DNA of 64,000 bases from Acidobacteriota bacterium (GTDB lineage: Bacteria > Acidobacteriota > Terriglobia > Terriglobales > Acidobacteriaceae): NCBI GenBank assembly GCA_025359885.1, contig JANYDG010000077.1, positions 43,605 to 107,604 on the forward strand. The letters are read 5' to 3'. Below the pieces are notes generated by a model that was not told where the DNA came from, made no database searches, and worked only from the letters and a program-made list of their open reading frames with translations. Each line of letters starts with the position of its first letter. Position 1 is the stretch's first letter. The position numbers were made by a program, and so were the translations under genes. Shown piece by piece: positions 28,986 through 47,471 of the stretch.

Positions 28986-29459
28986 ATGGAAGTCATTCTG
29001 AAAGAAGACGTAGCAAATCTTGGCCACCGCGGAGACGTGGTAAAGGTCGCCGAGGGCTACGGTCGCAATTTCCTGCTGCCGCGCAAGCTGGCTCTGCAGG
29101 CCACTACCTCCAACAAGGCCGTCATTGAACAGATGAAGGCCGCTGCTGTGCGCCGCTCCGCTTCGGAAAAAGTCCTCGCCGAGTCCCTCGCCGCCCAGCT
29201 CGAACCCCTCTCGCTCAGCTTCACACGCAAGTCTGGCGAAGAGGGCCACCTGTTTGGCTCGGTCACCTCGGCAGACATCGCCCACGAGCTCGAATCCCGC
29301 GGCTTCGAAGTCGACCGCCGCAAGATTCAGCTGGTTGAGCCCATCAAGTCCGTCGGCGAATTCTCCGTCGCCATCAGGCTGCACCGCGAGGTCACGGCGC
29401 ACGTCAAGGTAGCTGTCGCTGCCGAAAGCGTCGTCGAGCACGAAGCCGTCGCCGTCTAG
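28986..29459 (+). CDS. rplI: 50S ribosomal protein L9
   Basis: MEVILKEDVANLGHRGDVVKVAEGYGRNFLLPRKLA. Confidence 0.97.
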   Translation: MEVILKEDVANLGHRGDVVKVAEGYGRNFLLPRKLALQATTSNKAVIEQMKAAAVRRSASEKVLAESLAAQLEPLSLSFTRKSGEEGHLFGSVTSADIAHELESRGFEVDRRKIQLVEPIKSVGEFSVAIRLHREVTAHVKVAVAAESVVEHEAVAV

Positions 29460-29492: not shown

Positions 29493-29528
29493 TCACACCC
29501 ATCCTGCGCTACAGCGCGGGATGGGTGA
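29493..29528 (+). terminator. Stem-loop after rplI, possible terminator (weak U tract)
   Basis: TCACACCCATCC ... GGATGGGTGA inverted repeat 34 nt after rplI stop. Confidence 0.45.
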
Positions 29529-29561
29529 TTTGCGTTCCGATGTCCCTTACCCTCGATTGAG

Positions 29562-29671
29562 AGCATTTTCAGGAATACAGTGAAGTGTCGAGCTTTCGCG
29601 AGGATGGATTTTTCTTGATGAAAAATCCAGTCAGCGGTGCGGCCTCCCTCTATACCATTCCTGAAAATGCT
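29562..29671. repeat. Palindromic intergenic element, copy A (110 bp)
   Basis: 15 bp perfect terminal IR AGCATTTTCAGGAAT/ATTCCTGAAAATGCT; inner hairpin GGATTTTTC-TTGAT-GAAAAATCC; homologous to 46165-46272. Confidence 0.85.
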
Positions 29672-29674
29672 TTG

Positions 29675-29709
29675 GACCACCGCCAGCGGCTTCTCCCGGT
29701 CCGTCCGCA
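29675..29709. repeat. 35 bp direct repeat, left copy (remnant of ABC-ATPase 3' end)
   Basis: GACCACCGCCAGCGGCTTCTCCCGGTCCGTCCGCA identical to 30570-30604. Confidence 0.95.
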
Positions 29710-29810: not shown

Positions 29811-30083
29811 ATGCCCTCAAACTCCACCGACACGACTGCCACCGTCGAAGCCACCGTAACCTCCAAGGGACAAGTGACGCTTCCCAGGGAATTGCGGCTT
29901 CGCCTGGGGCTCCAGAAGGGCAGCAAGATCCGGTTCCATCTCTCCGACCGCAGTCCGGTCACGGTTGAGCCGGTGCTTTTGGAATTGGATGATCTCTGGA
30001 GGCTGGCAGATCAGGACAACACATCCCAGCCCGTCCTCAGTTTTGAGGAAATGAACGCCGCCAAGTCTCGGAGGCAATGGTAA
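29811..30083 (+). CDS. vapB: AbrB/SpoVT-type antitoxin (VapB)
   Basis: ATG at 29811 after AAGGAGG; VEATVTSKGQVTLPRELRLRLGLQKGSKIRFHL; overlaps vapC by a few bp. Confidence 0.88.
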   Translation: MPSNSTDTTATVEATVTSKGQVTLPRELRLRLGLQKGSKIRFHLSDRSPVTVEPVLLELDDLWRLADQDNTSQPVLSFEEMNAAKSRRQW

Positions 30084-30472
30084 TGCTCGCTGCCGATACC
30101 AACGTATGGGCTCGGGCCTACCTCAACGACGATGCCGCGCAGGCATCCCAGGCGCGCGCCGCCCTCGCCAGGGCAAGCTCCGAGGAAGGCGTCTTTGTGC
30201 CCTTGCTCGTCCTCGCAGAACTGTCCTGGGTGCTCCGCAGCCGCTGGGAGAGAGAAAGAGTCCTCAACACCATCGAAGGACTGCTTCAAACCCGGGGAGT
30301 CTCCGTCGAGCACCCGGCCTTGGCCCGTCGAGCCTTGGAAGCCGCTCACCAGGGGCGCGTGGGATTTGCCGATCACCTGATCGCGGAGGTTGCCTTCGAA
30401 CTCGGCGCACGCGAAATCATCACTTTCGACAAAGACTTCGCTCGCAAGCCCCACGTCCGCCGCTTGAAGTAA
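30077..30472 (+). CDS. vapC: PIN-domain ribonuclease toxin (VapC)
   Basis: LAADTNVWARAYLNDD...VPLLVLAELSWVLRSR...VGFADHLIAEVAFELGAREIITFDKDFAR. Confidence 0.92.
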   Translation: MVMLAADTNVWARAYLNDDAAQASQARAALARASSEEGVFVPLLVLAELSWVLRSRWERERVLNTIEGLLQTRGVSVEHPALARRALEAAHQGRVGFADHLIAEVAFELGAREIITFDKDFARKPHVRRLK

Positions 30473-30563: not shown

Positions 30564-31412
30564 TCAAGAGACCACCGCCAGCGGCTTCTCCCGGTCCGTC
30601 CGCAGCGTCGGCACCGCCGCCAGCAGGCTCTGCGTGTAGGCGTTGCCAGGATCGGTCAGCACCTGCTCCGCCGACCCCGCCTCCACTACCTGCCCCCGCC
30701 GCATCACAGCCACACGGTCAGCCATCTGCCCCACTACTGCCAGATCATGGCTGGTAAAAATCATCGCCAACCCATGCTCCCGCTGCAAGGTCTTCAGCAA
30801 CTCCAGCACCTGCGCCTGCACCGTCACATCCAGCGCCGTCGTCGGCTCATCGGCAATCAGCAGCTGCGGCTTGTGCACCAGCGCCATCGCAATCAAAATC
30901 CGCTGCCGCTGCCCGCCTGAAAACTGGTGCGGATAGTCCCCAAACCGCCGCGCCGCCTCAGGAATCGCCACCGCCTCGAGCGCCGCAATGGCCCGTTGCT
31001 TCGCCTCTCGCCCTGACATCCGCTCATGCGCCTCAATCGCCTCAGTCATCTGCCGCCCCACCGTCATCACCGGGTTCAGCGCCGTCATCGGCTCCTGAAA
31101 CACCATCGCAATCTCCCGCCCGCGCATCGACCGCATCTCCTCATTCGAGAGCCCGATCATCTCGCGCCCCCGCCACCGGATCGAACCCTCCACCCGCGCC
31201 GCCGGCCCCAGCAGCCCCAGCACCGCCAGCGAAGTCACGCTCTTCCCCGAACCCGACTCCCCCACCAGCCCCAGCACCTCACCAGCTCGCAAAGTCAGGC
31301 TCACCCCGCGCACCACCTCCGTTGCACCGAACCAGATTCTCAAGTCACGAATCTCAAGGACGGAGTCGGTCAGGCGGCCAGATGGGTTCGGCGGTTGGGC
31401 ATCCAGTTGCAT
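30564..31412 (-). CDS. Oligopeptide/dipeptide-type ABC transporter ATP-binding protein
   Basis: GLVGESGSGKSVTSLAVLGLL (Walker A), FSGGQRQRILIAMAL (signature), LLIADEPTTALDVTVQAQVL (Walker B). Confidence 0.92.
   Translation of the reverse strand: MQLDAQPPNPSGRLTDSVLEIRDLRIWFGATEVVRGVSLTLRAGEVLGLVGESGSGKSVTSLAVLGLLGPAARVEGSIRWRGREMIGLSNEEMRSMRGREIAMVFQEPMTALNPVMTVGRQMTEAIEAHERMSGREAKQRAIAALEAVAIPEAARRFGDYPHQFSGGQRQRILIAMALVHKPQLLIADEPTTALDVTVQAQVLELLKTLQREHGLAMIFTSHDLAVVGQMADRVAVMRRGQVVEAGSAEQVLTDPGNAYTQSLLAAVPTLRTDREKPLAVVS
30570..30604. repeat. 35 bp direct repeat, right copy (inside 3' end of ABC-ATPase gene)
   Basis: Identical to 29675-29709; encodes RTDREKPLAVV at the ABC-ATPase C-terminus. 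Confidence 0.95.
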
Positions 31413-44933: not shown

Positions 44934-46163
44934 ATGAACCGTCGCAGCTTTCTCGCCGCCGCTACCACGACTGCCGCCGTTTCCCTGGCTCCCGCCCGGG
45001 TACTCGGGGCAAACAACCGCCTTCGCCTGGGCATCATCGGCGCGGGCAGCCGCGGCCAGGAAGACATGCGCGCAGCCCTCGCCCTGCCCGACGTCGAGTT
45101 TGTCGCTGTTGCTGATGTCTACTCCCGCCATCGCGATGAGGCCCACGCCCTCGCCCCCGGAGCCCAGCTTTACGACGATCCCCGCAAGCTGCTTGACCGG
45201 CACGACATTGACGGCGTCATTGTCGCGAGCCCACTCTTTCTGCACTCCCGTCACTTTCTCGACACAATTGCCAGCGGCAAAGATCTCTATTGCGAAAAAA
45301 CGATGACCTGGTCAATTCCCGAGGCCATCACCTGCCGCCAGGCTGCCGCCGCCTCAAAGCAGGTGATCCAGATCGGCCTGCAGCATGAGAGCGAGGGCAC
45401 GCACGCCGACGCCCAGCAGTGGGTGAGGCAGGGTCTGCCTGGCAAGATCACCATGGTCGAGGCGTGGATGAGCCGCAACAGCCCGCACGGCCAGGGGCAG
45501 TGGCTCAGGCCAATTCCGGCCGACTGCGACCCCCAGCATGTCGGCTGGGACCTCTTCCTCAATGATCGCCCTCAAGAAGCTTTCAATGGCCACCGCTTCA
45601 TCAACTGGCGGCTCTTCTGGGAGTTCTCCGGCGGCAACGTCACGGAAAACATGGTTCACCAGATTGCCTGGATCATCACTGTCCTCGGCCTGAAGGAACC
45701 CCTCGCCGCCACGATGGCCGGCGGGGTTTTCTCTGAAAAGGATGGCCGCCAGGTGCCCGACACCATCGCCGTCACGCTGGAGTTTCCCGACCTCACGGTG
45801 CTTTGGCAATCTACCTTCTCCAACAGCCGCTATGGCTTAGGCGAAAGGTTTCTGGGCTCGGATGGCACGATTGAACACATCAGCGGCTCAACGAATATGG
45901 TCACGGGCAAGTCTGAATCCTCGCTCAACTTCTATCCGGAAAAGATCAACAGTCCCAACGGCGCATTGCGGAGCGGGTCGGCGAAGGGAGTTGACCACAT
46001 GCAGAACTGGTTTGACTGCATGCGGAGCCGCAAACAGCAGACCAACGCCCCGGTCGAAACCGGCTACCTCTCTGCTGTTGCGGCGCACATGGCCAACCTT
46101 GCCTACCGCCAGCAACGCCGCATCACCTGGGAAGAAGCCAAGTCGATCCAGCCTGGGTACTGA
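44934..46163 (+). CDS. Gfo/Idh/MocA family oxidoreductase with Tat signal
   Basis: MNRRSFLAAATTTAAVSLAPARVLG; LRLGIIGAGSRGQEDMRAAL; DLYCEKTMTWS. Confidence 0.93.
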   Translation: MNRRSFLAAATTTAAVSLAPARVLGANNRLRLGIIGAGSRGQEDMRAALALPDVEFVAVADVYSRHRDEAHALAPGAQLYDDPRKLLDRHDIDGVIVASPLFLHSRHFLDTIASGKDLYCEKTMTWSIPEAITCRQAAAASKQVIQIGLQHESEGTHADAQQWVRQGLPGKITMVEAWMSRNSPHGQGQWLRPIPADCDPQHVGWDLFLNDRPQEAFNGHRFINWRLFWEFSGGNVTENMVHQIAWIITVLGLKEPLAATMAGGVFSEKDGRQVPDTIAVTLEFPDLTVLWQSTFSNSRYGLGERFLGSDGTIEHISGSTNMVTGKSESSLNFYPEKINSPNGALRSGSAKGVDHMQNWFDCMRSRKQQTNAPVETGYLSAVAAHMANLAYRQQRRITWEEAKSIQPGY

Positions 46164-46164
46164 G

Positions 46165-46272
46165 GCATTTTCAGGAATTCTGGGAAGTCTCTCGCTGGGG
46201 TGAGGTTGTATTTTCCTGATGAAAAATCCAGTGAACAGGCCCTAATTCGGTCTACACCAATTCTGAAAATGC
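46165..46272. repeat. Palindromic intergenic element, copy B (~108 bp)
   Basis: Terminal IR GCATTTTCAGGAATT/AATTCTGAAAATGC; shares TGATGAAAAATCCAGT core with copy A; begins 1 bp after the preceding stop codon. Confidence 0.8.
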
Positions 46273-46307
46273 TCTCGTTGCTGGCACTGTTGTGGCGGGA
46301 GCGATCA

Positions 46308-47471
46308 TTACCGGAAAAGATGGGGCACGAACCGGCTGATGTTGGTGGTGATGAGGCCCTCTGACTCGCGGATACCCATGCCGGCCGGTTCGCCATCCAC
46401 CAGCCAGCTGCCGATCACCGCGGTGCGGCCATCGGCCTGCGCCAGCGGGGCCAGTGCCTGGTAGACACAGGCCTCATCGGGCGTCGCAGCCGGGTTTGCC
46501 CCCTCGGCCTGCGCCCAGTTTCGAAACACCGTGATGCCCCCGCCCTCGCGCCCAAAGAACGGCTTCCGCACATAATTCTGCAGGTTGCGGGGGCCGCCCA
46601 GGTAGGTTGGCAGCAGCAGTTCGTGATTCGGATAGAGCTCCCACAAGATAGCGAGCAGCGCCTTGTTTGACCACATCATCTTCCAGATTGGCTCAATCCA
46701 CTGGGTCATTCCGGGGCGGGCCTTTTGCTGCCGGGCGTTCATCGTCCCAAGGGCATGCTCGGCAAAGGACTCTGCCAGCAGCCACTCCCAGGGGTAGAGC
46801 TTGAACAGGGTCTGAATCGCGGACTCGTGCAGGTCGACAAAGCAATGCTTCTTCTCGTCCCAGCCGATCTCGTGCATCGTCAGTTCAGTGGTCTGCAGCC
46901 CTGCCTGCTGGGCTGTGTCGCGCAGATAGGTTACGGTCATCGCGTCTTCTTCTGCCCCATCATGGGCAAAGCAGACGGGCTGCGCTACGTAGGGTGCAAG
47001 GTCCTTCCACTTGGCTACGAGCTTTTCATGCAGGGAGTTGAACTGGTCTTCGCGGGGGAAGCAGTCTTCGAGCCAGTACCATTGCGCGACGGCTGCCTCA
47101 ACGAGCGCTGTGGGAGTGTCGGCGTTGTACTCCAGCAGCTTGATCTGGCGCCCATCATAAGCGAGGTCAAGCCGGCCGTAGAGTGCTGGTGGCTCGCTTT
47201 GCCAGGTCTGCCGGATGTGCTCTGCGGCTGCGGCAGGAATCTGCATGCGGCTGAGCCAGTCGCGCTCCAGAATCACGTCTCCGGCAGCCAGCGCGAGCCG
47301 CTGAATCTCGGCAGTTGCGGCCTCCAATCGGTCTACTTCGGAAGCTGAGAACTCCCAGTAAGCTGATTCATCCCAGTAGGGGCTGCCGTTCTCGAGGGTG
47401 TGGAAGGTGAGCCCGACTTTTTCTACGTGTGACTGCCAGTTTGGGCGAGGAGCGATGCTGTGACGGCGCAT
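46308..47471 (-). CDS. Glutathionylspermidine synthase family protein (YgiC/YjfC-like)
   Basis: GRLDLAYDGRQIKLLEYNADTPTALVEAA; QWYWLEDCFPREDQFNSLHEKLV; C-terminal GMGIRESEGLITTNISRFVPHLF. Confidence 0.9.
   Translation of the reverse strand: MRRHSIAPRPNWQSHVEKVGLTFHTLENGSPYWDESAYWEFSASEVDRLEAATAEIQRLALAAGDVILERDWLSRMQIPAAAAEHIRQTWQSEPPALYGRLDLAYDGRQIKLLEYNADTPTALVEAAVAQWYWLEDCFPREDQFNSLHEKLVAKWKDLAPYVAQPVCFAHDGAEEDAMTVTYLRDTAQQAGLQTTELTMHEIGWDEKKHCFVDLHESAIQTLFKLYPWEWLLAESFAEHALGTMNARQQKARPGMTQWIEPIWKMMWSNKALLAILWELYPNHELLLPTYLGGPRNLQNYVRKPFFGREGGGITVFRNWAQAEGANPAATPDEACVYQALAPLAQADGRTAVIGSWLVDGEPAGMGIRESEGLITTNISRFVPHLFR

Follow-up and report, generated by a model that had tools for sequence, protein, structure and literature searches.

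A palindromic 112-bp repeat of Acidobacteriaceae that inserts at TA and is probably moved by IS630-family transposases

The palindrome and its copies

The sequence-only reading of the window (the whole 64,000-nucleotide stretch of DNA analysed) described a 110-bp palindrome at 29562-29671 and proposed a REP/MITE-like or structured-RNA repeat family, which raises the question of whether this segment, here called copy A, is a mobile DNA element or an RNA kept for its fold. The palindrome was found exactly as described. A perfect 15-bp inverted repeat, with its left arm AGCATTTTCAGGAAT at 29562-29576 and its right arm ATTCCTGAAAATGCT at 29657-29671, encloses the hairpin GGATTTTTC-TTGAT-GAAAAATCC, which occupies 29606-29629 together with its flanking base (all on the plus strand) and is the best-conserved part of the element within the genus. 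Folded as RNA, copy A showed a minimum free energy of -45.7 kcal/mol compared with -27.2 +/- 3.4 kcal/mol for shuffled sequences (z -5.4); none of the 200 shuffles folded as well, and the fold of copy A is far beyond chance. Alignment of the copies in its own genome, an Acidobacteriaceae MAG, revealed that the true copy A spans 29561-29672 on the plus strand, one base longer on each side. These limits exclude the TA remnants, and a match of the covariance model R1 covers G000:C39:73163-73278. The two TA dinucleotides of the target duplication that flank intact copies are both mutated here, to GA at 29559-29560 on the left and to TG at 29673-29674 on the right. No intrinsic terminator was found inside the copy A element.

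Upstream of copy A lies rplI, which encodes ribosomal protein bL9 (28986-29459, plus strand; Pfam PF03948 and PF01281). On the 3' side of rplI, a GC-rich 14-bp hairpin at 29496-29527 probably terminates transcription of the rpsF-rpsR-rplI operon. A MazE/AbrB-type antitoxin gene (29811-30083, plus strand; PF04014) follows directly downstream of copy A and, with a PIN-domain toxin gene, forms a pair that spans 29811-30472. We observed that two exact copies of a 30-bp minus-strand repeat, GACGGACCGGGAGAAGCCGCTGGCGGTGGT, bracket this pair: the one at 29676-29705 directly adjoins copy A, and the one at 30571-30600 lies at the 3' end of the gene for an Opp-type ABC ATPase (30564-31412). It seems that either the tail of the ABC gene was duplicated or a vapBC-like pair was inserted between the repeats.

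The diverged homologue that had been placed near 46165-46272 was also present. This copy B, a member of subfamily B, occupies 46163-46274 on the plus strand between convergent genes, with TA remnants at 46161-46162 (TG) and 46275-46276 (TC). A Gfo/Idh/MocA-type oxidoreductase gene (44934-46163, plus strand; PF01408) ends at copy B, and its stop codon TGA (46161-46163) consists of the mutated left TA and the first base (A) of the element. The convergent neighbour is a glutathionylspermidine synthase-like gene (46308-47471, minus strand; PF03738). In agreement with the sequence-only reading, no transposase was found near copy A or copy B. Both are old, decayed members of their family.

A BLAST search of the own genome returned 41 matches including copy A, that is, 40 further copies, nearly all of them spanning the full length with 85-96% identity to copy A. 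When a 14-bp arm was searched with at most one mismatch, we obtained 100 matches in the same genome and 1 for the reversed control, and these counts together rule out chance. At least 53 elements with a recognisable core, diverged copies included, were extracted from this genome, and at least two subfamilies can be told apart among them: A, which includes copy A (29562), and B, whose members resemble 46165. The intact unit measured 116-117 bp with both TAs in 124 of 144 copies and 112 bp without them; rare other lengths, both TAs counted, include 107 and 126 bp. No gene was found inside the element.

The core hairpin pattern was detected at 83 loci in the GTDB species collection, where all loci with a named taxon were from Acidobacteriaceae, Acidicapsa or Granulicella and the others were from Acidobacteria MAGs. 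Searches with the R1 model revealed copies in 59 of 200 Acidobacteriaceae genomes, representing 23 of 79 genera, and a phylum-wide sample of 297 genomes gave a single marginal match outside the family. The plasmid and phage collections contained no match, no Rfam family matched the element, and literature searches on related terms yielded no description of the repeat. The element thus represents a widespread and apparently undescribed MITE family. Another Acidobacteriaceae genus (G104) showed 137 arm matches and several identical copies, a recent burst (L346-L375 and L387-L406), and its contigs break within the element.

Target sites and gene ends

To look for empty sites, we joined the flanks of each of seven own copies and compared them with the genomes of the genus. 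The sister genome G011 contained uninterrupted sites for L008, L010, L007 and L003, each with a single TA, and all four read as stop codons (TAG or TAA). These sites record past insertion of the element. Intact copies are flanked by TA at either end; C or T precedes the left TA, and G or A follows the right one. The target duplication, for which 2-8 bp had been suggested as the range to check, thus measures 2 bp. In particular, CTA..TAG and other YTA..TAR flanks were present in 118 of 144 copies; the preferred target is CTAG/YTAR.

The target flanks were somewhat asymmetric (T..G 45 versus C..A 18, P 0.0009, with copies that are not fully independent), which a symmetric transposase does not predict. 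Such asymmetry would suit an HUH (Y1) transposase of the RAYT or IS200-IS605 type, which would act on a folded single strand and insert 3' of YTAR with no duplication, the right TTAG belonging to the element. The left tetranucleotides differ by subfamily, as this route would allow, Y1 genes were present in 11 of 16 genomes tested, and the L003 empty site fits it slightly better. However, the L010 empty site fits a TA duplication better, and the position that follows the right TA can be G, A or T and therefore looks host-derived. Additionally, the element-bearing genomes G004, G007 and G013 gave no Y1 match, and while many Y1 genes in the 16 genomes were flanked by other repeats, none of those examined was bracketed by the element. 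We regard movement by a Y1 transposase as very improbable.

In line with a published description for Acidobacteria (PMC3733652), RAYT/TIRYT-type Y1 genes of this genus had inverted repeats of their own (GGGGCTTTAGCCCC, GGGTGCCCCA and others); they were observed at L081, L082, L192, L193, L197-L199, L201, L204, L207, L208, L211 and L216. The RAYT/TIRYT repeats of Acidobacteria are likewise dispersed palindromes in the same bacterial group (PMC3733652), but they adjoin Y1 genes, whereas the element does not and has TA ends. Integron attC sites were also considered and rejected, as the element lacks a GTT core and has TA ends.

The boundary of the element was the exact stop codon of the adjacent gene in 26 of 53 own copies. 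Among the 49 own copies that were classified, 29 lay between convergent genes, compared with 26% expected by intergenic length (P = 1.3e-6), and no own copy lay between divergent genes; these gene-position counts rest on a simple gene caller. After the TA, the end begins with A or G in 113 of 144 left ends and 99 of 144 right ends, and insertion into TAG or TAA therefore usually rebuilds a stop codon. The simplest account of the position bias is target preference combined with purifying selection. The repeat unit of pneumococcus (RUP) and the IS elements of that species show the same convergent-gene bias, which was explained as tolerance (PMC3049150).

DNA repeat or RNA fold

The arms change completely between subfamilies (GCATTTTCAGGAAT, GCATTTTCCGGAAT, GCAGAATCCGCAT, GCAAAACCACAGTA, GCGGTTTTCCAGTT and others), yet the left and right arms co-vary and stay Watson-Crick complementary. 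In 24 sequences, both sides of a pair were changed in 101 cells compared with 34 in shuffles. The central hairpin was nearly constant in the genus and co-varied in other genera (GTGGCTTTTTC, CAGCTTTTC and GGCATTTTC, each with its complement), and the TTGA-type loop was kept across genera. Further copies and compensatory changes, whose absence would have refuted the sequence-only reading, thus exist.

Strong co-variation is also what a structured RNA would show, for example a 3'-UTR stabiliser or an RNase III target kept for its fold at gene ends. The location of the copies at gene ends agrees with this explanation, as does a strand difference in RNA energy, with one strand reaching a lower value than the other in 129 of 147 copies. 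The composition of the pairs nevertheless points to DNA. At the 15 arm positions of 48 subfamily representatives, we counted 635 Watson-Crick cells (88%), 24 G-U cells and 17 A-C cells, while the shuffled counterpart contained 410, 65 and 59, respectively. G-U was thus depleted as strongly as A-C, which is predicted by symmetric recognition of DNA ends and not by an RNA helix. Within four subfamilies, 89 stem transitions keep pairing and 91 break it, indicating no selection for structure in single copies; the structure is thus kept in lineages that are still moving and lost in resident copies. The copies also showed no orientation bias relative to tandem genes and, as stated above, no Rfam match. 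The difference in energy between strands is weak evidence, because it is partly reproduced by shuffled versions of copy A and because the z-scores are equal for the two strands of this copy. With the G-U/A-C test negative as well, an RNA strand preference was considered and dropped. We conclude that the element is an inverted repeat of DNA and not an RNA maintained for its fold, and we give the structured-RNA explanation hardly any probability at all, although single transcribed copies may have RNA-level effects.

Candidate transposases and related systems

IS630 inserts at TA, preferably within CTAG (PMC2170065, citing Tenzen and Ohtsubo 1991). We found that the ends of the element have the layout TA-RRGC-N12-RSTRTR and that IS630-family ends in sister genomes share this layout, so the second paired stretch adjoining the arms probably corresponds to RSTRTR, the inner of the conserved blocks of the end. 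In the own genome, a fragmented MAG of 95% completeness, no match to a DDE_3 (IS630-type) gene was found. DDE_3 genes were present in 6 of 9 genomes tested, and the own copies could therefore have been mobilised in the past.

An exact scan of the IS630 loci for 12-bp inverted repeats was negative, and the ends were found by a tolerant scan and an end profile. At L166 (G012, 1031 bp) and L168 (G007, 1058 bp), the two best sites of the end profile flank the transposase in inverted orientation at TA, with scores of 25.2/14.6 and 21.6/19.1, respectively; the highest score among 3,773 control sites was 14.7. A blind scan for TA-flanked inverted repeats returned the same ends, with scan scores that by themselves were not above shuffles. 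The truncated IS630 end at L187 and an element end agreed at 23 of 28 positions, a better match than at any of the 3,777 control sites. Overall, L166, L168 and L187, which belong to relatives in the genus, share 18-23 of 28 positions with element ends and are not identical to them, and no IS630 copy was found whose ends are identical to element arms of the same genome. The proteins are IS630 transposases according to NCBIfam, and Sleeping Beauty was matched distantly.

Several further observations concern these loci. The IS630 at L168:969-2026 has its helix-turn-helix and DDE parts in two overlapping frames, as if frameshifted or broken. At L188:693-807, a copy of the element sits within or abuts a decayed IS630 transposase gene, a situation also reported for RUP in pneumococcus. 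In the parts read of the fragmented G104 assembly with its 137 arm matches, no IS630 copy was found; an autonomous partner in that genome was considered and rejected because unpaired arms proved to be truncated copies and contig-end arms the short element itself. Clustering of open reading frames at 142 loci, aimed at a recurrent gene beside the copies, gave no transposase.

Some other IS groups likewise use TA or TNA as targets. The element could thus be moved by a DDE transposase that targets TA but belongs to a family other than IS630, and such an explanation is favoured by the lack of an IS630 match in the own genome. The IS630 ends of the sister genomes, however, have the two conserved blocks of the element at the same spacing, and we consider a transposase of another family unlikely. 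Weighing the points against IS630 as well, namely the missing DDE_3 gene in the own genome, the lack of identical ends and the asymmetric flanks, we consider it quite probable that the element is a non-autonomous MITE moved in trans by IS630/Tc1-mariner-family transposases. Of the types first proposed, the MITE is retained on the basis of dispersed copies, terminal inverted repeats, TA duplication, empty sites and matching IS630 ends. The REP type is not, as many RAYT-type genes carry unrelated repeats and none is bracketed by the element, and neither is the structured RNA, given the avoidance of G-U.

In the proposed mechanism, the transposase would recognise both ends, cut out the 112-bp unit and join it at a TA, preferably within CTAG/YTAR, with duplication of the TA. 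Insertion into the TA of TAG or TAA would rebuild an in-frame stop, as the ends usually begin with A or G; the neighbouring protein would be unchanged, and such insertions would survive. Copies would then accumulate at gene ends and between convergent genes and decay as neutral DNA. The shared end layout suggests that these IS630 transposases act on the element, and a cut-and-paste route would be expected from known IS630 behaviour. The central hairpin may help transposition. We also raise, tentatively and as a rather unlikely extension, the idea that the family is selected for DNA architecture and not for end sequence, such that a fixed 116-117 bp (about 11 helical turns, both TAs included) and a central hairpin, by folding or bending the DNA, would allow one transposase dimer to join both ends. 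The constant length and the hairpin would then have a role of their own, and the arms would be free to keep pace with shifts in IS630 specificity across at least 23 genera.

To place the element among known systems, we compared their published properties. One of the closest is RUP, a MITE of IS630-Spn1 in a different host phylum, compared by published properties only, which is about 107 bp long and tightly folded, has terminal inverted repeats, a TA target and a proposed IS630-type mobiliser, and is over-represented between convergent genes (PMC2229807, PMC3049150). In contrast to RUP, the element has arms that change completely between lineages, a central hairpin that is kept, and frequent insertion at stop codons. 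ERIC/IRU and Correia/NEMIS, which have other hosts and sequences and were likewise compared by published properties only, are palindromic intergenic repeats of 100-160 bp with 5'-TA-3' termini, target duplication and stable folds (PMC2229807). RNA-level effects have been reported for them, whereas the element gave no sign of selection on RNA. The IS630/Tc1-mariner elements ISY100 and IS630 show TA duplication, CTAG preference and transposase-bound inverted ends (PMC2170065); the element shares its end layout with IS630 copies of sister genomes but has no gene, measures 112 bp and contains a central hairpin. The family is ordinary in kind and unusual in combining fast-changing ends with a constant architecture.

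Across a large family of soil bacteria, the element acts as a marker of gene ends. It can confuse the annotation of gene ends and, because of contig breaks within it, the assembly of MAGs as well. The co-evolved ends of its 48 subfamilies form a natural series on which the choice of ends by IS630/mariner transposases can be tested, and the rebuilding of stop codons represents a simple route to harmlessness for a mobile element.
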